Source of the DNA: a bacterium | GTDB taxonomy: Bacteria > Zhuqueibacterota > Zhuqueibacteria > Residuimicrobiales > Oceaniaggregativiventaceae | Direction of reading: 5' to 3' | Length of the DNA: 64,000 nt | Assembly (NCBI GenBank): GCA_029565675.1 | Contig: JAKQNP010000051.1 | Location: forward strand, 1-64,000 | Part shown: one piece after another, positions 48,674 through 58,897 of the stretch | Position numbering within the stretch: the stretch's first letter is position 1 | Layout: each line of letters opens with the position of its first letter | Notes under the pieces: model-generated | What the model was told of the DNA's origin: nothing | Database searches by the model: none | Seen by the model: the letters and a program-made list of their open reading frames with translations, nothing else | Position numbers and translations under genes: made by a program

Positions 48674-49435
48674 TCATTCAATGCCGAGATACTTGAGGAG
48701 CGCGCGGATAATCGTCAAAGGATGCGGCGGGCAGCCAGGGATATAGAGATCAACAGGGATTGCAGAGAAAAAGTCACGGTTCAGCTCACTGGAACCACTA
48801 AAGATGCCGCCACTGATCGCACAGGTTCCGACGCAAATCACCACGCGGGGTTCACCGACGCTCTTGTACGCGTCGTGCAGCGCTGGCGCCATGTTTTTGC
48901 TTATCGGCCCGGTGATGGCGATACCGTCCGCATGCCGCGGCGAAGCGACAAAATCGATGCCAAAACGGCCCATGTCAAAGTTGACATTATTGCTTGCAGC
49001 CAATTCCATTTCACAGCCATTGCATCCCGCAGCAGAGACCTGACGCAATTTGAGAGACCGGCCGAATAGGCGATGGATTTCCTTGCGGGCTTTGATGGCT
49101 GTTTCCTGATAGGATGCGGCTGTCATCCCTGTGGCTATGGTTAGCAACTTCCGGTCTGCAGCACCCAGCAAATGGTTATTGCTGAACTGGATCGCTTCAT
49201 GAGCACAGGATCGTTGACATTCAGCGCAAAAAATACATTTTCCCAGATCGATTTGCAAGGGATTGATTTCGATGGCCCCCGTTGGACAAATATTTTGGCA
49301 TGTCCGGCACTTTTTCGGACATTTGCTCTCATCCAGAATCGGGAAACCGCAATAGTGTGTTGGCAGATTGGCCTTGAACAAATCGGGGATCGCTTGATCG
49401 CCGTGTTTTTTTCTCAATCGAATCAATTCAAACAT
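48674..49435 (-). CDS. Hydrogenase-like small subunit fused to 2[4Fe-4S] ferredoxin (HyfI/NuoB-like)
   Basis: This 253-residue subunit combines two proteins. The N-terminal part (residues 39-90) has two [4Fe-4S] motifs, 'CPKKCRTCQNICPTG' and 'CIFCAECQRSC', as in HyfH/NuoI. The C-terminal part (about 130-253) is NuoB/HyfI-like with cluster ligands in 'GCNGCEMEL', 'CVGTCAISGG' and 'PGCPPHP'. In hydrogenase 4 these are separate genes, so a fusion is notable. It would pass electrons between a soluble donor and the large subunit. Good ribosome site AAAGGA; last gene of the complex. Confidence 0.9.
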   Translation of the reverse strand: MFELIRLRKKHGDQAIPDLFKANLPTHYCGFPILDESKCPKKCRTCQNICPTGAIEINPLQIDLGKCIFCAECQRSCAHEAIQFSNNHLLGAADRKLLTIATGMTAASYQETAIKARKEIHRLFGRSLKLRQVSAAGCNGCEMELAASNNVNFDMGRFGIDFVASPRHADGIAITGPISKNMAPALHDAYKSVGEPRVVICVGTCAISGGIFSGSSELNRDFFSAIPVDLYIPGCPPHPLTIIRALLKYLGIE

Positions 49436-49447
49436 CCTGCTGTCCTT

Positions 49448-50935
49448 TTATAAATCGAATCCGCAATATGACAGGTTGAAGCTCTTGTTGCAGAGTGGAA
49501 AATCGGATATCCCTTCGTTTCTGACTGCCAGAGCGAGGGCAAGCCAATTGTTGAACGATGGATCTTTGATTTTGTAGCGGCAAAGCTGTCCGCGCTTATC
49601 GGTTATGGCGATATGGGCGATTTCACCTCTCCAACCTTCAGTCAGCGAGACCACCAGATGATCGGGTCTCAGGTCCGTGACAGGTCGGCGGATTTTACCG
49701 TTGGGAAGGCTTTCGACTTGCTCTCGGATCATGCGCAGCGATTGAAGAATTTCCACATAGCGCACATAGGCACGGGCAAAGACATCACCGGTAGACAGCG
49801 AAAAGGCATGTACCGGAAAAGAGGCATAGACGCCGTAAGGGAAATCGGCTCGCGCATCAATGGGTATGCCGCTAGCCCGCGCAGCCGGGCCGACCATGCC
49901 GAGTTCTCTGGCGGTTTTTTTCGACACGGCGCCGGTTTTTTCGAAGCGCGATAGAACAGATGCTGATGCAAACAACACATCGGCTGCCAGCTCGGTTTTT
50001 TCTTCCAATTCGTCGACAACGGACTTGATTTTTGCCACCACATCGACAGTCAGCTCACTGTACACACCGCCGGGTGCCAGCAGCCCCCTGCCAAATCGAT
50101 TGCCGCAGATGGCCAAACTCGTGTTGGTGGCCAGAGTGCGCAGAGCGGCAAAAACCGAGTGGCCGGTCAAATAGGCAACATCGCCTGAGAGTGCAGATAG
50201 ATCACCCAGATGCACAGCGACGCGTTCCAGTTCCAGGGCAATTGCGCGGATCGATTCCGCCCGTAGGGGAACCCTGGTTCCACTCAGAGCTTCCAGTGCA
50301 TTCACGAATGCACCCGTATGTCCGATAACGGTGTCGCCGGCAATTGATTCCGCCAACTTTAAGAGAAAAAAGGGCTTGCGGCGGTTTTTGATAAACAACT
50401 TTTCGATGCCGCGGTGCTGAAATCCGAGTTCGATCTCGAGATGATGGACGGTCTCGCCGGTGCAGGAAAATCGAAAATGACCGGGTTCGATCACGCCAGC
50501 ATGGATAGGCCCGACACCCACCTCATGAACTTCTTCGCCTGCCATATGGAAAAAATGGTAAGACTCTTCTCCGCCCTCGATGCCGGCAATCCCTTTTCTC
50601 ACCGGCTTTAGCCAGGGGTGTCCTGCAGGCATGATGCCGTAATCTTCGTAAATTTCGCGCTCGAACAGGTGGCAAGCCGGTGCTGACGGGGTCATCGACG
50701 CAAAGGATTTGCTTCTCGGCACCTCTGCCGCAGCAAGAACAAGAAACGAATCCGCATCGTCTGCCAGCACAGTATACAGAGCCAGATCCTTTCCGCTTTG
50801 ATTGGCAAAAAATTGCACCAGCCTTTTGCCTGTGTGGATCTGATCCAGCATGTTTTCCACGAGTTCATCCGTTGCCAGGCGAGGAATGTGGCTCAACGGC
50901 ACCGCCTGCAAATTTTTGATCTTTAACCAATTCAT
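49448..50935 (-). CDS. Hydrogenase-like large subunit lacking Ni ligands (HyfG/NuoCD-like)
   Basis: This 495-residue protein fuses a NuoC-like domain (residues about 1-125, 'LFEREIYEDYGIMPAGHP') to a NuoD/HyfG-like domain ('GPIHAGVIEPGHFRFSCTGE', 'LGFQHRGIEKLF'). In [NiFe]-hydrogenases two CxxC motifs hold Ni-Fe. Here the first position reads 'AESIAGDTVIGHTGAF' (about 193-208) with no Cys. The C terminus reads 'DFPLCNKSFNLSYCGFDL', where two Cys are nine residues apart and not a CxxC. It is therefore not a hydrogenase. It fits the energy-converting hydrogenase-related (Ehr) group, whose substrate is unresolved. Confidence 0.9.
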   Translation of the reverse strand: MNWLKIKNLQAVPLSHIPRLATDELVENMLDQIHTGKRLVQFFANQSGKDLALYTVLADDADSFLVLAAAEVPRSKSFASMTPSAPACHLFEREIYEDYGIMPAGHPWLKPVRKGIAGIEGGEESYHFFHMAGEEVHEVGVGPIHAGVIEPGHFRFSCTGETVHHLEIELGFQHRGIEKLFIKNRRKPFFLLKLAESIAGDTVIGHTGAFVNALEALSGTRVPLRAESIRAIALELERVAVHLGDLSALSGDVAYLTGHSVFAALRTLATNTSLAICGNRFGRGLLAPGGVYSELTVDVVAKIKSVVDELEEKTELAADVLFASASVLSRFEKTGAVSKKTARELGMVGPAARASGIPIDARADFPYGVYASFPVHAFSLSTGDVFARAYVRYVEILQSLRMIREQVESLPNGKIRRPVTDLRPDHLVVSLTEGWRGEIAHIAITDKRGQLCRYKIKDPSFNNWLALALAVRNEGISDFPLCNKSFNLSYCGFDL

Positions 50936-50950
50936 TGGTTTGCTCTTTCT

Positions 50951-52384
50951 TTATTGCAAAAATTTGGCTGCCTCGCTCAACAGCTGGACAAGTTTATCTG
51001 GAATGGCCGCTCCGAAGCTCAACAGAAAAACCAACAAGAGAATCTGTGGCAGATAAGCCAAAAACGACAGTCTGGGGGAGGTCGGGTGGCTGTGTGAGTC
51101 CGGATCGGCAAACACCATCGATACTGCAGCGCGCATCATCCCGAATATCACAATCAATACAAATAGAAAAAAGGGCACGACCAACCACCCCATGCCGCTT
51201 TCAAAGAATGCTTTAATAAGCAGGAATTTGCTCAGAAAGGTCGGGAAAGGCGGCAATCCGGCAATGACCAGAATGGCCACTATCCAGAGCCAGCCGGTCA
51301 GCGGTTCTCGTCGCAGAAGTCCTCGAACTTGAGCGATTTCCTTGCTTCTGGTTAAATGAAGAATATTGCCCGATGTCAAGAACAGAGCGGACTTGGCGAA
51401 TGAGTGAGCCCCGGTGTGCAGCATGGCTGCAAACAAGCCGGTTTTGCCCATGGTAAGGCCAATGAACAGAATGCCCATGTTCTCGATCGATGAGTAAGCC
51501 AGCATTCGCTTGTAATTCTTGCTGTTGGTCATGAAAACAGCGCTGATAAACAGAGAAAGAAAACCGATAAACCTGATCAGGCTGTTGGAAAAAGAACTCA
51601 GGTTGGCTTGGATCAGGATTTCCTGAACGCGGATCAACCCAAGAAAGGCAGTGTTTAAAAGTGTTCCGGAGAGCAGCGCGGAGACCGGAGAAGGTGCTTC
51701 GGAGTGGGCATCAGGCAGCCAGGCGTGAATGGGGGCAACTCCGATTTTGGTGCCGAATCCCACCAGAATGAAGGCAAACGACATTTTTAACCAAAAGGGA
51801 TTGATCTGGGAAGCGCCGGCGTACAGATCGTGGAAGAACAAAGAGCCGATCGACTTGGCACCCATCGAGAGGATAATAATGCCAACGAATGCCAACGCGA
51901 TGCCGACGGAACAGATAAAAATATATTTCCACGCGGCTTCCAGTGCGGATTTTTTCTGTTCAAAATTGATGAGCACGGCGCTGGTCAAGGTGGTTGCTTC
52001 AATGAAAACCCAAAGCAGTGCAAGGTGGTTGGAGAGAATGACGCCGATCATCGCCGCTACAAAGAGCAGCATCGAGGCTGCGTAAAAAGAGTGACGGCGC
52101 GGGCTTGTCTTCTGCTCGCGATGATAGTACACACTGTAAATCGCCGCGCTCAGAAAAACGACAGCCATAATGAGCAGGAAAAGGAGCCCGATGGCATCCA
52201 GCCGAAAATAATTGTCCAGCCAACGCGGTCCTGCGGGAGAAAAAATGCCGCACCAGATGCCGATGCTGAAGAGAGCGATGATTCCTGCGCCGACAAGCAG
52301 AGCGCTGTCATTGATTACCCGATGCGGTTTGATCAGGGTGATGATTGCCAACAGGACAGGCGCTGCAACAATCAATAAAAGCAT
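50951..52384 (-). CDS. Proton/sodium-pumping membrane subunit (HyfF/NuoN-like)
   Basis: This is a 477-residue antiporter-like subunit with about 14 membrane helices. The key charged residues of the family are present: Glu in 'WVFIEATTLTSAVL' and Lys in 'VGFGTKIGVAPIHAWLPDAH'. 'EAPSPVSALLSG' and 'MLAYSSIENMGILFIG' are classical signatures. The start is the ATG at 52384 with GGAGA; the longer frame is formed by the repeat element upstream. It is separated from the HyfE-like gene by the 137-bp repeat. Confidence 0.92.
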   Translation of the reverse strand: MLLLIVAAPVLLAIITLIKPHRVINDSALLVGAGIIALFSIGIWCGIFSPAGPRWLDNYFRLDAIGLLFLLIMAVVFLSAAIYSVYYHREQKTSPRRHSFYAASMLLFVAAMIGVILSNHLALLWVFIEATTLTSAVLINFEQKKSALEAAWKYIFICSVGIALAFVGIIILSMGAKSIGSLFFHDLYAGASQINPFWLKMSFAFILVGFGTKIGVAPIHAWLPDAHSEAPSPVSALLSGTLLNTAFLGLIRVQEILIQANLSSFSNSLIRFIGFLSLFISAVFMTNSKNYKRMLAYSSIENMGILFIGLTMGKTGLFAAMLHTGAHSFAKSALFLTSGNILHLTRSKEIAQVRGLLRREPLTGWLWIVAILVIAGLPPFPTFLSKFLLIKAFFESGMGWLVVPFFLFVLIVIFGMMRAAVSMVFADPDSHSHPTSPRLSFLAYLPQILLLVFLLSFGAAIPDKLVQLLSEAAKFLQ

Positions 52385-52394
52385 AAATATTCTC

Positions 52395-52531
52395 CAGTTC
52401 GGTGCGAAGCACCGGATATGAAAGAAAATCAATCTGATAGCAACACACAAAGGGTAAGAAGAGCCCTTTTCGCAACCGCATAAAGAATAAGCGATTGATT
52501 ATTTTATGATTCACTTAACACCGAATCCGGG
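52395..52531. repeat. Dispersed 137-bp element, copy 4, inside the operon
   Basis: It lies between the HyfE-like and HyfF-like genes. The left end TTCGGTGCGAAGCACCGGAT is a palindrome centred on GAA, and the right end is CACCGAATCCGGG (52519-52531), inverted relative to the left arm. The interior is about 80% alike to the element at 47665-47770, sharing AGAAAATCAATCTGATAGCA. It resembles a small non-autonomous element with terminal inverted repeats. Confidence 0.8.
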
Positions 52532-53167
52532 TCAATCCTTCAGTTGAGTCAAAACATCGATATGGCTGCCGTCGTAAAGCGACTGGATCTTGTTGAAGAA
52601 AATGACCAGCAGGAACACAGCGACGAACAGGTCCAAGAGCACACCGAGATTGACCAGCATGGGCATTTCATTGGCAACGGACAAGGAGAGAAGGAAGATG
52701 CCGTTTTCGAGCATCATAAAGCATAAAATATGGGTGATGATCCGCTTGCGAGTGACAATGAGGAACAGGCTGGCGATGATCATCGATATGGACACACCGA
52801 AGTAGAGCGGTTTGATATCTCCTTCAACCCGGGCAGCCCAGAAGGCGGCAACGAAGGCAAAGATGAAGATGGCGCTGGCGATCATCAGCGAATAAAACTG
52901 GGAGATATAAGGCTCCACCTCACGACCGATTTCGTTGCGCCGAATGGTGCGCAGCAAGAACCAGGGAATGGCAATCGCTTTGACGACCAGGGTTTCCAGC
53001 ACCAAAAAAGCGCTGTTAATCCAATTCATGTCGCGGATATCTGTAACCACCAGAAAAAACAGGATCAATCCCTGTAAAGACAGGGTTTTGATAAAAGCTT
53101 CGATGCGGCTTGCGGCAAAAACATAGAGCATCAAGGTACCGAAGAGAATGATGAGGATGTCAGTCAT
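52532..53167 (-). CDS. HyfE-like membrane subunit
   Basis: This is a 211-residue membrane protein with about six to seven helices, related to HyfE and, in its C-terminal half ('LCFMMLENGIFLLSLSV', 'GVLLDLFVAVFLLVIF'), to NuoK/MnhC. The Glu in 'MMLENGIFL' corresponds to the conserved NuoK helix-2 glutamate. It overlaps the preceding HyfC-like gene by ATGA. Part of the membrane arm of the complex. Confidence 0.9.
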   Translation of the reverse strand: MTDILIILFGTLMLYVFAASRIEAFIKTLSLQGLILFFLVVTDIRDMNWINSAFLVLETLVVKAIAIPWFLLRTIRRNEIGREVEPYISQFYSLMIASAIFIFAFVAAFWAARVEGDIKPLYFGVSISMIIASLFLIVTRKRIITHILCFMMLENGIFLLSLSVANEMPMLVNLGVLLDLFVAVFLLVIFFNKIQSLYDGSHIDVLTQLKD

Positions 53168-54084
53168 CGCAATACTCCATTGCGAAAGAACATAACAACT
53201 GCAAATGCGGTCAACGCCAGTGCCGACATCAAAAAAATGAATTGCGGCACATGCGACATGCGCAGACGGGCGATCAGGGATTCGGTCCCTGCGATGCCAA
53301 CTGCGACCAGCATAAACAGCGCCAAAAACAGCAGAGCTGCACCTGCTGGACCGATGCCCGCAGGAATCAGCAGATTGGCCAGCAGGGTGGTGATCACGAC
53401 CATTTTTAAGGATGCGGCATACTGCATAAAGGCCAAATCTGGTCCGGAATAGTCGAGAATCATGACTTCGTGGATCATCGTCAGTTCGAGATGGGTGTTG
53501 GGATCGTCGACAGGGCCGCGAGATCCTTCCACCAGCAACATGATGAACAAGACGATGGTGCCAAGGGACTTGACCAGCATTGCAAAGCCTGCGCCGTCAT
53601 CCAGGTTGGCAACAATCGCCGATAAAGAACTTTGCCGGGTCATCAGCGCTAGGGTGCCGATCAGCATGAAAAAGGCCGGCTCGACGATGCTGGCAAAGGT
53701 CATTTCCCGGGCAGCACCCATGCCTTCGAAACTGCTGCCGGTGTCCATCGCTGCAGCTACCAGCAGAAACCGAGCCAATCCCAAAGCATAGGCAAACAGG
53801 ACAAAATCGCCCGGAAAATTCAGCAACGCGGTCTGCTGCGGCATGGGGATGATCAACGCCGCCAGAATGACAGCGGCCAGGTTCACCGAAGGCGCCAGGC
53901 GAAAGGCAAAGGAGGTTGTCTTGCTGATCACCTGACCCTTGCGCAGCAATTTGAGAAAATCGTATCCCGGTTGCCATATGGGTGCGCCATGGCGGCCGGC
54001 CCACAGAGCTTTGCTCTTGTTGATCAGACCGGGCAGCAAAAAAGGCGCGATGAGAAAGGTAAAAACAGCAAAAATCAGCGTCAT
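53164..54084 (-). CDS. HyfC/NuoH-like membrane subunit
   Basis: This is a 306-residue subunit that links the peripheral and membrane arms. NuoH-type features include 'RHGAPIWQPGYDFLKLLRKG', the charged 'LLVEGSRGPVDDPNTHLELT' loop, and 'IHEVMILDYSGPDLAFMQYA', the last typical of the hydrogenase-3/4 branch. The start at 54084 is fixed by the TGATG overlap with the HyfB-like stop; a longer frame extends into that gene and is rejected. Confidence 0.93.
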   Translation of the reverse strand: MTLIFAVFTFLIAPFLLPGLINKSKALWAGRHGAPIWQPGYDFLKLLRKGQVISKTTSFAFRLAPSVNLAAVILAALIIPMPQQTALLNFPGDFVLFAYALGLARFLLVAAAMDTGSSFEGMGAAREMTFASIVEPAFFMLIGTLALMTRQSSLSAIVANLDDGAGFAMLVKSLGTIVLFIMLLVEGSRGPVDDPNTHLELTMIHEVMILDYSGPDLAFMQYAASLKMVVITTLLANLLIPAGIGPAGAALLFLALFMLVAVGIAGTESLIARLRMSHVPQFIFLMSALALTAFAVVMFFRNGVLR

Positions 54085-56063
54085 CAGCGGACTCCAATGA
54101 TCCAAATGATCAGGATGATCAGAAAAATCAAGCCGTAGAGAATGTATTGTTGGGTGCGGCCGCTCTGAATCCAGGAAAATAGATTGAAAAAACGCTGCAG
54201 AAAATCGATCAGCGGCCGAACAAACCAACGTTCGACGATATCGTCGCTGTGGCTTTCATATCCAGCCATCGTCGGAAAGTAGCCTTGCGGAGATTCAAGT
54301 TTTTGATTTTGCGGAACGGCCAATTTAACCAACGCCATAAAGTTTGATGCAAACGAGCTGGCAGTATATTGCAGCCGCGGATCGCTGGCTTGATAGCCAC
54401 AATCCCAGGTTTTGAAAACGCTGACCGACCTGTTCCGGAGCAAAAGAAACCTCAGAAGGATGAAAAACAGAATCAAGCCGGTCAGAATCCAAAGTCCATG
54501 GGTGGCTTGCCAATAAATTTTCTGCAGAACCACGAAGGATTCGGGATCGGCAGCAAAGGGTCGGACGACCGATTCGACAAGCGGCAGCACCAGGGGAATA
54601 CCCAATCCGATCACCAGGATCAAACCGCCCAGGACAAACATGGGAGTCAAAAACCAGCCGGAAACTTCTTTCGGATGATGTTCTGCTGAGGTACGACTGT
54701 TGCCTTGAAAGATGATGCCAAAGACTTTGGTAAAGCAGATGGTCGCCATAATGCCGATAAAGGCCAGGCCCGTAAGACAGACCAGGGACGCCAGATTGGT
54801 TGCCATTTGCGCAGCTGCCAGACCTTTGGCGGCACCGATGTAAACAGCGAACTCGCTGATGAAACCGTTCAGCGGCGGCAGACCGCAGATCGCCAGAGAG
54901 GCAAGAAGAAAAAGAGCGGCGGTGACCGGCATGGCATGCTGCAAACCGCCCAGCTTTTCTATATTGCGCGTATGGGTCTGGCTGTAGATCGCCCCAGCCG
55001 CATAAAACAGCAAGCTTTTGAAAGTAAAATGGTTAAACACATGCAGAATTGCGCCTGTAAAACCCGCCAGTGAGAGAAATGCATTGCCGCTTATCCGGCC
55101 GATCATCCCCATGCCGATGCCAATTCCAATGATGCCGATATTTTCAATGCTGTGATATGCCAAAAGCCTTTTTAAATCGTGTTGCGCGATGGCATTCATG
55201 ACCCCCAGAATGCCGGATACCCATCCGACACCAAACACCAGGTAAGCCAACCAGGGAGCCGGAATGCCGATGATCAGGATTATCCGCAGGATACCGTAAA
55301 TCCCTGTTTTGATCATAATTCCGGACATCAGCGCCGATACCGCACTGGGAGCGGCCGGATGAGCCAGGGGCAGCCAGGTGTGCATGGGAATGAAGCCGGC
55401 TTTGACTCCGAAACCGATGAAAAACAACAAAAAGAGAATCACAGTTTTGCTGTTGTCGATTCCGCTCAGCAGCGCGAACGATGCAAAGTTCATATCGCCG
55501 GTCAACAGGCTGGCCCAACTGAAGGCTGCGATCAACAGGGCCGCACCAAATTGCATGGCGATGAAATAGTAGAGCGATGCCCGGTGCACTTTTGCTTTAT
55601 CGTTGTCAAAACTGACCAGGAAAAACGAGGCCAGCGACATCAACTCCCAGACGATGATGAACAGCAGAGCATTCTGCACGAGTACGACCAGAAGCATAGA
55701 GACAGTCAAAAATCCCAAAAAGAAATAGTAAGCGCCCAGCGCAGAGACGGGATTTTTGTAATTCATTTTCATGTAACCGATAGAATAGATGGCGGCCAAT
55801 AATCCGCCGAGGGAAATGATCAGCAGAAAGAAAGCGGCAAGCCCATCCATCAGCAAAAGAGCTCTGCCAATGGGAAATGGAAATGGCACGACCAGCGACT
55901 GTGTCTGACCATCCAACAGCACTGAAAAAGCGGTCGGCAAAATGAACAACTGTGCCAATGCGGCACCACAGAGAAACAGCCGACCTTTGATCTTTTGCCC
56001 GACAAACAATTCACCCATCCCGCCGGCGAAAAAGAGCAAAATTCCAATAATCAGGTGATTCAT
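54084..56063 (-). CDS. Proton/sodium-pumping membrane subunit (HyfB/NuoL-like)
   Basis: This is a 659-residue NuoL/MrpA-type subunit with about 16 helices. Conserved Glu lies in 'VWELMSLASFFLVSFD', conserved Lys in 'GFGVKAGFIPMHTWLPLAHP', and the family blocks 'APSAVSALMSGIMIKTGIYG' and 'LLAYHSIENIGIIGIGIGMG' are intact. A C-terminal extension ends in a helix ('ILYGLIFLIILIIWIIG'). Both start and stop overlap neighbours (TGATG), so it is tightly coupled to the regulator upstream and the HyfC-like gene downstream. Confidence 0.93.
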   Translation of the reverse strand: MNHLIIGILLFFAGGMGELFVGQKIKGRLFLCGAALAQLFILPTAFSVLLDGQTQSLVVPFPFPIGRALLLMDGLAAFFLLIISLGGLLAAIYSIGYMKMNYKNPVSALGAYYFFLGFLTVSMLLVVLVQNALLFIIVWELMSLASFFLVSFDNDKAKVHRASLYYFIAMQFGAALLIAAFSWASLLTGDMNFASFALLSGIDNSKTVILFLLFFIGFGVKAGFIPMHTWLPLAHPAAPSAVSALMSGIMIKTGIYGILRIILIIGIPAPWLAYLVFGVGWVSGILGVMNAIAQHDLKRLLAYHSIENIGIIGIGIGMGMIGRISGNAFLSLAGFTGAILHVFNHFTFKSLLFYAAGAIYSQTHTRNIEKLGGLQHAMPVTAALFLLASLAICGLPPLNGFISEFAVYIGAAKGLAAAQMATNLASLVCLTGLAFIGIMATICFTKVFGIIFQGNSRTSAEHHPKEVSGWFLTPMFVLGGLILVIGLGIPLVLPLVESVVRPFAADPESFVVLQKIYWQATHGLWILTGLILFFILLRFLLLRNRSVSVFKTWDCGYQASDPRLQYTASSFASNFMALVKLAVPQNQKLESPQGYFPTMAGYESHSDDIVERWFVRPLIDFLQRFFNLFSWIQSGRTQQYILYGLIFLIILIIWIIGVR

Positions 56064-56749
56064 CAGTTCTCCGCTGCTTTGTTATGCCATTTCATCTCTT
56101 GATCTCGCACAAATGCCAGAAGCTCTTTTTGCGTTGCCTGCACCTCCAACAAGGCCCGAAAATCCTCCATCTGACATAAATAGGAGATTTTGGCCAACAC
56201 TTCAAGATGTCGCTTCGGACTGAAGGTGAGGAGGATGAACAGCGTATGCACCGGTTGACTGTCCAGGGCGCCAAAATCCACCGGCTGCTGCAAATAGCAG
56301 ACTGAAATGCTGGCGTCTTCGATGTTGGTAATCAACGGAGTCCGCGGATGCGGAATGGCAATGCCGTGACCGATGGCGGTCGACATCATCTGCTCGCGGT
56401 TCACCAGCGCACTGGAGATTTGCTCCGGATCTATCGATTCCGGATTGGGGATGCTTTTGATGGCATTTTGCAGGACCTCGATGACGGTGCGGCCTTCGAT
56501 ACCCGTATGAACGCCCCCCTTTTGCAGGAGATCAGCAAAGTTGGTCGGCCGTTTGGCAAGAGTCAGATCGAGTGCCTTTGACGACAATTCGATCTTGTTG
56601 CTCAATATCCATTCATTGATTTCGGCGCGGCTGAACCGATACTGATGATGAATTCGGTAGCAAGGGATCTTTTTTTCCTTGATCCAGCGATATACCGTTT
56701 TCTCCGATACCTGCAAATAGTCGACAATGTCCTTGATTTTGAGATCCAT
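56063..56749 (-). CDS. Helix-turn-helix plus EIIA (PTS type 2) regulator
   Basis: This 228-residue protein has an N-terminal excisionase/MerR-type HTH (residues 1-52, 'IVDYLQVSEKTVYRWIKEKK', 'YRFSRAEINEWI'). A C-terminal EIIA-fructose/nitrogen-type domain (about 70-215) carries the phosphorylatable His134 in 'GHGIAIPHPRTPL'. It is the first gene of the complex operon and overlaps the pump subunit. The domain pair suggests a phosphorylation-sensitive DNA-binding regulator of this operon. No PTS permease is nearby, so EIIA would act as a signalling rather than a sugar-import domain. Confidence 0.9.
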   Translation of the reverse strand: MDLKIKDIVDYLQVSEKTVYRWIKEKKIPCYRIHHQYRFSRAEINEWILSNKIELSSKALDLTLAKRPTNFADLLQKGGVHTGIEGRTVIEVLQNAIKSIPNPESIDPEQISSALVNREQMMSTAIGHGIAIPHPRTPLITNIEDASISVCYLQQPVDFGALDSQPVHTLFILLTFSPKRHLEVLAKISYLCQMEDFRALLEVQATQKELLAFVRDQEMKWHNKAAEN

Positions 56750-57136
56750 CCTTCGGTCCCTTTATATTGCCCGCCAAATTTGTGCGGCTCACCTGATTAT
56801 CGAAAATGCCATTTATCGGTTGTTGCGCCAATGCAAGTCCTTGCCTGTGCCCTTGATAGGTCGCACAAGAATAATTCGTTTCTCAATTTCTCTGTTTGAG
56901 CCCGAGAACCGGGATTTTTCAGCCGATTTGGGTGGGATAACCGGCTTGCAGCGGAAAAACGCCCAATATACCCAATTGTCCGGTAAAAAGAAAGAAAATA
57001 AATAATTTCCTTTGATGTCTTGTATTGAGCAGTTCTTGGCAGAGACAACAGGTCCAGCTGCGGATTTTAAGTGAAGTCAGGTGTTGCAGCGCGATTCAGG
57101 CCACAAGGATTTAGACCCTTGTGGTCATTTTATGCT
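56750..57136 (-). promoter_or_regulatory. Probable promoter region of the complex operon
   Basis: The 387-bp gap lies between the antiporter stop and the regulator start. It holds a hairpin CCACAAGG/CCTTGTGG (57101-57124) 13 bp after the antiporter stop, without a T-run on the minus strand. On the minus strand TATATT (56970-56975) could be a -10 box but no good -35 precedes it. No gene is seen. Confidence 0.3.
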
Positions 57137-58897
57137 TTATTTCTCACTGGCCCTTCTCTGCCTGCCGGATTTGTTTCGTCGTGTTCTCTTGCTTTTGCCG
57201 AACGTCAACAGCCCGGTCAAAATCTGAAAAAGAGCGGCGGAGTTCGGAGCCTCGCCGATCAATCGGCGGTTTTCATCGTTTTCCATGGTCCTGGCGATCG
57301 AGGCGAGGATTTGCACATGCAGGTCTGCCGTCGTCGTGGGGGTGGCCAGCAAAAAAATGCTGTGCACCGGGTCTCCGTCAGGCGCATCCCATTCTATTCC
57401 TGCAGGCGAACGGCCAAAGGCCAGCAATGGATTAGTAAGGCCGTCCAGGCGCAAATGCGGGATTGCCACTCCTTTGCCGATGGCAGTGCCGAGTTCATCT
57501 TCGCGCTCCATCACGCCATCGACGATCGACGCCAAGCCTGCAGCCTGCGGTTGTCGGTCCAGAACAGCGACCAGTTGGGCAATCGCATCGGCCCGGCTTT
57601 TGGCTTTCAATGTGGCGATGACGGCGTCCTGGGCTAAGAAATGTGCCGGAGATACAGCCGCCCGGCGCGATAAAGAATTGGCCATCAGCGGCCCGACGAG
57701 ACTCGAGGTCAGCATGGCCGAAAAAAGAATCGCGACCATGACCGGCGGCGTAATCAGCCCGGCTTCCAACGCCAACATGGCAACCACGATTTCCATCATG
57801 CCGCCGGAAATATGGGCAATGGCGATCAGATCTCGATTCACCCGCGGCACCCGGCTTCGCGTCACCCCCAGCCATGTGCCGATGTAGCGCACCGCGATGG
57901 TGGCGCTGCAGATCAACACGATCAGCCGTAGATCAAAGTTCGCGAAAAAGTCGATTTTCAATCCGATGGTGGCGAAAAACAGCGGTGCAAACAGGGAATG
58001 CACCATTTGCGAAATCATACCCCGTGTTTGTTCCGACAAGCTTTTGGCTTCACCGACCAATACACCCGCAAGGAAGTAGCCATAGAGGGAGTGGATGCCC
58101 AATTTCTGGGCTATCGCCCCGAGCAGCAAGGCCAGCAAGACAGTGATGGTAAAGCTGGAGCTTGGTTCAGGCAAGCGGCTCCAATGAACCGCTTCGAACA
58201 AGTTCGTCGAAATGCGCCGGCCGACGGTGAGAATCAACACTGCCAAACAGACTGTAATGACAAAAACCCAAACAGCCTTTTGCATCAGAAAGGTTTCCTG
58301 GCTGGCGATTCCCAAAACGATGGTATGAATAACCCAACCAAAGACCTCGTTGACGGTCAGAGCTGAAATAATTAAAAAACCGAGATCGGTTTTGAGCAAT
58401 CTCAGGTCTTGCAGCATTTTTGCGATGACCGACAGTGCGCTGATGTTCATTACCGTCGCCATGAAAATCGAGTAGAGAATGCGCTGGTCTGGATTGCCCA
58501 TATATTTTACAGGCAGGATGGCAACGACGGCCAGCGCGATAGCCACTGGAAAGACAATATGGCCGAACGCAATCCTCAGGGCGCTGCCGCGTTGGCGCCA
58601 GGCAATTGAAAAGTCGATTTCGATTCCCGTATCCAACAACAAAAACAACACCCCCAACTGGGAGACCGTTTCCAGCATGTTGTTTTGGATGGGATCGGCC
58701 GGGAACAGAGCCCCGTGCAGGCCAGGCCAAAATTGGCCGAGAATGGTTGGTCCAAGGACGACGCCGACGAGAATTTCGGCGGTCAGTGTCGGTTGTTTCC
58801 ATCGGCGAAAAAGCTCGCCGAGCCCCCTTGCGCAGCCCATGAGTATGAAAAGCTGAACGAGAAACAAGAAAATGTGCGATTCATCATGGTAATGCAT
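57137..58897 (-). CDS. CPA2 cation:proton antiporter with C-terminal EIIA domain
   Basis: This 586-residue protein has about 12-13 membrane helices of the Na+/H+ exchanger (KefB/GerN) fold in residues 1-395, including 'VLLALLLGAIAQKLGIHS' and 'GYFLAGVLVGEAKSL'. An EIIA-2 domain at about 430-575 carries a potential phospho-His481 in 'GKGVAIPHLRLDG'. Architectures of this type are known but uncommon, and imply antiport controlled by phosphorylation or by partner binding. It lies just upstream of the HTH-EIIA/respiratory-complex operon, same strand, with a 387-bp gap. Confidence 0.9.
   Translation of the reverse strand: MHYHDESHIFLFLVQLFILMGCARGLGELFRRWKQPTLTAEILVGVVLGPTILGQFWPGLHGALFPADPIQNNMLETVSQLGVLFLLLDTGIEIDFSIAWRQRGSALRIAFGHIVFPVAIALAVVAILPVKYMGNPDQRILYSIFMATVMNISALSVIAKMLQDLRLLKTDLGFLIISALTVNEVFGWVIHTIVLGIASQETFLMQKAVWVFVITVCLAVLILTVGRRISTNLFEAVHWSRLPEPSSSFTITVLLALLLGAIAQKLGIHSLYGYFLAGVLVGEAKSLSEQTRGMISQMVHSLFAPLFFATIGLKIDFFANFDLRLIVLICSATIAVRYIGTWLGVTRSRVPRVNRDLIAIAHISGGMMEIVVAMLALEAGLITPPVMVAILFSAMLTSSLVGPLMANSLSRRAAVSPAHFLAQDAVIATLKAKSRADAIAQLVAVLDRQPQAAGLASIVDGVMEREDELGTAIGKGVAIPHLRLDGLTNPLLAFGRSPAGIEWDAPDGDPVHSIFLLATPTTTADLHVQILASIARTMENDENRRLIGEAPNSAALFQILTGLLTFGKSKRTRRNKSGRQRRASEK

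Follow-up and report, generated by a model that had tools for sequence, protein, structure and literature searches.

Energy-converting hydrogenase-related (Ehr) complexes, on which Marreiros et al. (2013) reportedly worked, as citing papers relate, are a known family within the hydrogenase-complex I superfamily. The passages on Ehr in PMC6349859 and PMC10284858 describe a large subunit like that of group 4 [NiFe] hydrogenases but without Ni-Fe ligands, antiporter-like subunits and unknown partners, and leave the function open. Three end-states of the superfamily are known structurally: [NiFe] hydrogenase, complex I and the sulfane sulfur reductase MBS of Pyrococcus, in which a three-residue shortening frees the proximal cluster, where polysulfide is reduced (PMC7684303). 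Here we describe an operon within 64,000 nucleotides of DNA from a bacterium of the class Zhuqueibacteria (assembly GCA_029565675.1, contig JAKQNP010000051.1, positions 1 to 64,000; hereafter the window). At 48674-56749 on the minus strand, tightly packed genes encode a helix-turn-helix protein fused to an EIIA domain of the phosphotransferase system (PTS), here called HTH-EIIA, followed by HyfB, HyfC, HyfE, HyfF, HyfG and HyfI. We assign the complex to Ehr from its sequence; its Ni-Fe site has been rebuilt, and HTH-EIIA appears to be a conserved regulator inherited together with it.

Results

The large subunit, HyfG (49448..50935, minus strand), carries the Complex1_30kDa and 49kDa domains. 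An initial annotation had proposed that it has lost the Ni-Fe site, and ungapped alignment with E. coli HycE bears this out, as all four ligand cysteines are replaced. In the L1 motif RVCGIC of HycE becomes SIAGDT, giving A199 and T202, and in L2 DPCYSC becomes NLSYCG, giving S489 and G492. Reading the whole of HyfG revealed no CxxC pair elsewhere, which rules out a hydrogenase with shifted ligands; the two cysteines in 'LCNKSFNLSYCG' near the C-terminus occupy non-ligand positions.

A pattern scan of GTDB contigs returned at least 573 relatives. We examined the best 80 of these, which come from many phyla, plus those of the window's class, most of them contigs of metagenome-assembled genomes (MAGs) with open reading frames (ORFs) from a simple caller. 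Across 89 relatives, one of them gapped at the L2 positions, residue 199 is Ala in 69, Cys in 13, Ser in six and Val in one, and residue 202 is Thr in 75, Ser in 13 and Ala in one, while Ser489 and Gly492 are each found in 88/88. The latter two belong to the C-terminal sequence DFPLCNKSFNLSYCGFDL, which is strongly conserved; S477-L495 ranks with the best-conserved stretches of HyfG, and G200 and D201 are invariant. Because the replacements are fixed and the stretch is strongly conserved, the site must have been rebuilt and is not decaying.

Moreover, HyfG ends at the end column of NuoD, with 0 residues beyond it, and hydrogenases run 32-34 residues further. This hydrogenase extension is cut off on maturation; with no residues past the mature C-terminus, HyfG would need no maturation protease. 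The best structural match of the HyfG model (mean predicted local distance difference test score, pLDDT, 78.5) was HycE of the E. coli formate hydrogenlyase (7z0s_E). The fold is common to NuoD and also matched MBS (6u8y_L); residues 111-173 and 480-495 of the model are too weak for placing pocket residues.

Two variants were noted among the relatives. A sub-clade without HTH-EIIA, mostly Gastranaerophilales (L051, L053, L055, L056, L071 and L114), has Cys199, Ser202 and Tyr in place of His206 (e.g. ESVCGDSVIAY), and is possibly a functional variant. On a Verrucomicrobia contig, a second, divergent Ehr-like set of HyfB, E, F, G and I directly follows the first (L080, 17367-19034 and neighbours), with the motif ESISGDSSFAH.

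In a tree of 70 rows, whose relatives were gathered by similarity, Ehr forms one clade (Shimodaira-Hasegawa-like approximate likelihood ratio, SH-aLRT, 100) apart from every functional hydrogenase sampled, though next to HycE/HyfG (89) on the group 4 side; Ech, Mbh and NuoD fall on the other side. The sister relation to HycE/HyfG is tentative, since long Ehr and HycE branches meet there, as the tree program warned. Among named Ehr relatives, MAGs of Bacteroidetes and Ignavibacteriales come closest. The assignment to Ehr, which rests on published descriptions and was already suggested by the initial annotation, is thus upheld by ligand loss, operon make-up and tree: a large subunit that resembles those of group 4 hydrogenases but lacks the Ni-Fe cysteine ligands is encoded in one operon with a [4Fe-4S] small subunit, a NuoH-like anchor and antiporter-like subunits.

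By sequence, tree and fold, the nearest characterised relatives are the E. coli formate hydrogenlyase and hydrogenase 4 (Hyc/Hyf), with the same HyfB-C-E-F-G-I order. However, the window operon has no HyfD or HyfA, its HyfH-like ferredoxin is fused to HyfI, and the Ni-Fe ligands, C-terminal extension, maturation genes and formate dehydrogenase are all missing.

HTH-EIIA (56063..56749, minus strand) matches HTH_17 (PF12728) and PTS EIIA-2 (PF00359) above cut-off in the Pfam/NCBIfam profile searches by which all domains were identified, and has a phosphorylatable His in GIAIPHPR. Of 70 testable loci, 40, from 11 named phyla, have its gene within or at the Ehr operon, and two further loci (L083 and L106) have it adjacent. 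It is found directly upstream of hyfB or, in several Verrucomicrobiota, between hyfB and hyfC. By phylum it accompanies Ehr in Planctomycetota (8/9), Verrucomicrobiota (8/9), Bacteroidota (4/4), Spirochaetota (3/3) and Myxococcota (2/6), with single cases in Acidobacteriota, Thermodesulfobacteriota, Lentisphaerota, Ignavibacteriota, Zixiibacteriota and Omnitrophota. One locus with both HTH-EIIA and Ehr belongs to the cultured Geomonas limicola (L057). Within the window's class, nine of 63 genomes contain a full-length HTH-EIIA scoring at least 150 bits, every one at the Ehr locus. Of five other full-length copies, which score lower and lie elsewhere, two are next to a CLC channel and three next to a CPA2 antiporter. 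The divergence of HTH-EIIA correlates with that of HyfG (Mantel r 0.645; the largest of 2000 permutations gave 0.299), part of which may come from shared host descent. The phospho-His motif is kept in 42/43 Ehr-adjacent copies, and the window's genome has a PTS enzyme I gene. The initial annotation had listed HTH-EIIA first among the genes; its part as a conserved, co-inherited regulator is new here and, in our view, the most informative addition that the sequences suggest. Neither this operon partner nor the diagnostic GD[TS] / NKSFNxSYxGxDL signature is mentioned in the Ehr passages of PMC6349859 and PMC10284858.

Among the regions upstream of HTH-EIIA in the nearest clade, 8/8 contain GGACAW on the same strand, a count that no 6-mer with at least three G/C attained in 300 dinucleotide shuffles. 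The motif comes with a 10-base repeat in L037, L048 and L049 and a 20-base repeat in L135. The window's candidate operator, GGACAATTGGGTATATT (56965..56981, minus strand), holds GGACAW; with up to 2 mismatches allowed, the window has no other match (0.11 expected by chance). This copy lies at -232, farther upstream than the others (-56 to -112). A universal operator is ruled out, as the motif is not general beyond the nearest clade.

HyfI (48674..49435, minus strand; Fer4 and PF01058, Oxidored_q6) joins a two-[4Fe-4S] ferredoxin domain to the proximal-cluster subunit. The fused ferredoxin reported by the initial annotation is confirmed, with both four-cysteine motifs present (C39/43/46/50 and C67/70/73/77). 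Among relatives, each cluster 1 cysteine is found in 64-84 and each cluster 2 cysteine in 70-86 of 87 rows, and most HyfI proteins are similar in size (243-313 aa). The four proximal-cluster cysteines (C138/141/205/235) are conserved, and the motif has the full hydrogenase-type CxxC spacing of 28 residues, as in E. coli HycG and 64 relatives.

Two antiporter-like subunits contain PF00361 (Proton_antipo_M): HyfB (54084..56063, minus strand), in which E140, K221, K252, H345, K349 and E404 are each shared by 73-74/74 relatives, and HyfF (50951..52384, minus strand), in which E151 and K235 are shared by 78-79/79 and the K408 position is E or K. HyfB scored 524 bits against the hydrogenase 4 subunit B model NF005086, under its cut-off of 667. 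The NuoH-like anchor HyfC (53164..54084, minus strand; PF00146, NADHdh) keeps E183, D241 and E248 in 72-73/73 relatives. The claim of intact pump residues thus stands for key residues of HyfB, HyfC and HyfF, which appear largely intact, and fails at a few positions: HyfF lacks the Lys at NuoN K247, and HyfC has Asn/His at NuoH E216/E218. The NuoK-like HyfE (52532..53167, minus strand) matched NF008556 (hydrogenase 4 membrane subunit; 60.9 bits) and PF00420 (Oxidored_q2), both below cut-off, and its residue mapping to NuoK is too unreliable to use.

All seven ORFs of the initial annotation were found where it had placed them, and its count of six subunits holds if HTH-EIIA, one of its seven names, is taken as the regulator. 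The start of HyfC is likely ATG 54084 rather than the listed TTG 54228 (most relatives are about 302-310 aa), and that of HyfF likely ATG 52384 rather than TTG 52450 (about 475-500 aa). Taking HyfC from ATG 54084, HTH-EIIA/HyfB and HyfB/HyfC overlap by one base each and HyfC/HyfE by four, which fits the expectation of coupled translation.

A neighbouring gene (57137..58897, minus strand) encodes a CPA2 cation/proton antiporter (PF00999) fused to an EIIA domain (PF00359). Its membership of the system is uncertain; L037 and L065 likewise have homologues beside the Ehr operon. Among neighbour families other than HTH-EIIA, the largest (an oxidoreductase-like family, a large unassigned protein and SulP) are each found at 5 loci. 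In L060, L061, L064, L065 and L110 homologous genes lie one to three genes upstream of the Ehr cluster, the L110 copy being a SulP anion transporter with a STAS domain. Neither a formate dehydrogenase nor NuoEF recurs in about 90 neighbourhoods, ruling both out as nearby partners.

Elsewhere in the genome, genes for a 2-oxoacid:acceptor (ferredoxin-type) oxidoreductase and RnfC are a candidate donor supply. A MenA-like gene scores above the TIGR00751 cut-off, and NuoF-like proteins are also present. No NuoD was found beyond the Ehr locus and a hydrogenase locus on contig C59, a provisional result as the genome is 95% complete. The latter (L136, 6743-18984) is a true group 4 hydrogenase with intact CxxC motifs, Mrp-like subunits, and a HycI-like protease and HypD nearby, and so serves as an internal control for Ehr. 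In nine genomes of the class (L018-L023, L025, L027 and L028), group 4 large subunits have an in-frame TGA at the second L1 cysteine (ERICGI-TGA), with L2 DPCFSC intact and a small hairpin just after the TGA in eight to nine of nine. This TGA looks like a selenocysteine codon; known [NiFeSe] enzymes carry selenocysteine in L2.

Discussion

Judged on its residues, the window complex fits none of the three structurally known end-states, which suggests a different acceptor. Both CxxC motifs and the C-terminal extension of a group 4 [NiFe] hydrogenase are missing. With respiratory complex I (the NuoD/NuoH arm) it shares the fold, the pump logic, the absence of Ni-Fe cysteines and the C-terminal end. 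However, its proximal cluster has CxxC where complex I has adjacent CC, an NADH module is lacking, and it branches apart from NuoD. The quinone ligands of complex I (His38 and Tyr87 of Thermus Nqo4) are His and Tyr in 6/6 NuoD rows but Ile and Gly in 47/47 Ehr rows. MBS is likewise a hydrogenase-derived pump that no longer makes H2, yet two of its four cysteines remain and its proximal cluster is open, whereas the window complex keeps none and its proximal-cluster motif is not shortened.

We propose that the operon encodes a PTS-regulated Ehr complex acting as a ferredoxin-driven ion pump derived from a HycE/Hyf-type hydrogenase, an account in which we place about as much belief as doubt. The pump residues, cluster chain and operon structure are our reasons for it, and the cation-pumping ferredoxin oxidoreductase hypothesised by the initial annotation is compatible with the conservation of clusters and pump residues. 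Electrons from reduced ferredoxin, or from some other soluble donor of low potential, would enter the two-cluster domain of HyfI and pass on through the fully cysteine-ligated proximal cluster to an acceptor in HyfG. The rebuilt pocket would comprise the invariant Gly200-Asp201 and Asn483-Lys-Ser-Phe...Ser489-Tyr490...Gly492...Asp494. The acceptor would not be H+/H2; that it is bound like the quinone of complex I is unlikely, and so is an MBS-type reduction of polysulfide. The HyfC/B/E/F arm would convert the redox energy into pumping of H+ or Na+. HTH-EIIA would sense the PTS phosphorylation state, and with it the supply of phosphoenolpyruvate (PEP), and control how strongly its own operon is expressed, probably through binding to the upstream GGACAW repeats; it may also touch the pump directly. 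In E. coli, unphosphorylated PtsN (EIIA-Ntr) binds and inhibits the K+/H+ antiporter YcgO (PMC11808508), so EIIA proteins are able to govern ion transporters. Both cases tie a phospho-His EIIA domain to ion transport, but the window's domain is fused to a DNA-binding domain and encoded inside a redox-pump operon. A search of open-licence papers for EIIA with hydrogenase-4 or complex-I-like operons gave nothing relevant.

Several observations weigh against this proposal. Conserved pump residues are no proof of pumping, and no conserved redox partner gene lies beside Ehr in the roughly 90 neighbourhoods, so that the fused ferredoxin is the sole pointer to the donor. Moreover, many Ehr loci, among them those of Melainabacteria (0/8), lack HTH-EIIA, which is therefore not essential to the complex, while GGACAW is not evident in clades other than the nearest.

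Four other explanations were ranked, in falling likelihood, as a quinone reductase, reverse electron transport, a redox-gated transporter and an MBS-like reductase. A ferredoxin:menaquinone oxidoreductase, that is a complex I without NADH module in which quinone reaches the proximal cluster through a HyfC/HyfG cavity, would account for the NuoD-like fold and C-terminus, could draw on the MenA-like gene and would fill the role left vacant as no NuoD was found. We nevertheless consider it unlikely given the uniform loss of the quinone His and Tyr; furthermore, Riflemargulisbacteria with Ehr lack quinone synthesis genes, according to PMC6349859. The same parts could also run backwards, with an ion gradient driving ferredoxin reduction from a higher-potential donor at the pocket. 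No sequence feature indicates direction, and with RnfC and 2-oxoacid:acceptor oxidoreductases already encoded in the genome, such reverse transport is improbable even though complex I and Ech are reversible in principle.

Without turnover, the clusters and pocket might instead be a sensor gating the antiporter arm, to which HTH-EIIA would give a second input. This would suit the lack of conserved redox partner genes and the plain ion transporters beside the class's other full-length HTH-EIIA genes, but a complete chain of clusters and the strong conservation of the pocket point to catalysis, and we know of no precedent in the superfamily; we hold a redox-gated transporter to be quite improbable. 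Sulfane sulfur reduction at the proximal cluster has in its favour that MBS is a solved relative with a partly lost Ni-Fe site (PMC7684303) and a fold match. However, it needs the three-residue shortening that frees one iron, and with the 28-residue spacing and all four proximal cysteines kept in HyfI, such chemistry is very unlikely.

Returning to the ferredoxin-driven pump, a broader and rather doubtful possibility is that Ehr is a fourth end-state of the superfamily. It would have its own pocket for an acceptor other than protons, complex-I-style quinone or polysulfide, and would be under the direct control of its own PTS-type DNA-binding regulator, which would link PEP status with the membrane gradient. 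Ehr is a widespread family, and the conserved replacement motif points to residues for mutation, while ruling out the three known end-states by sequence leaves fewer candidates for the acceptor. The link to HTH-EIIA offers a testable physiological handle on Ehr, through PEP/PTS status and operator DNA, and would join carbon-phosphorylation signalling to a complex-I-like pump.

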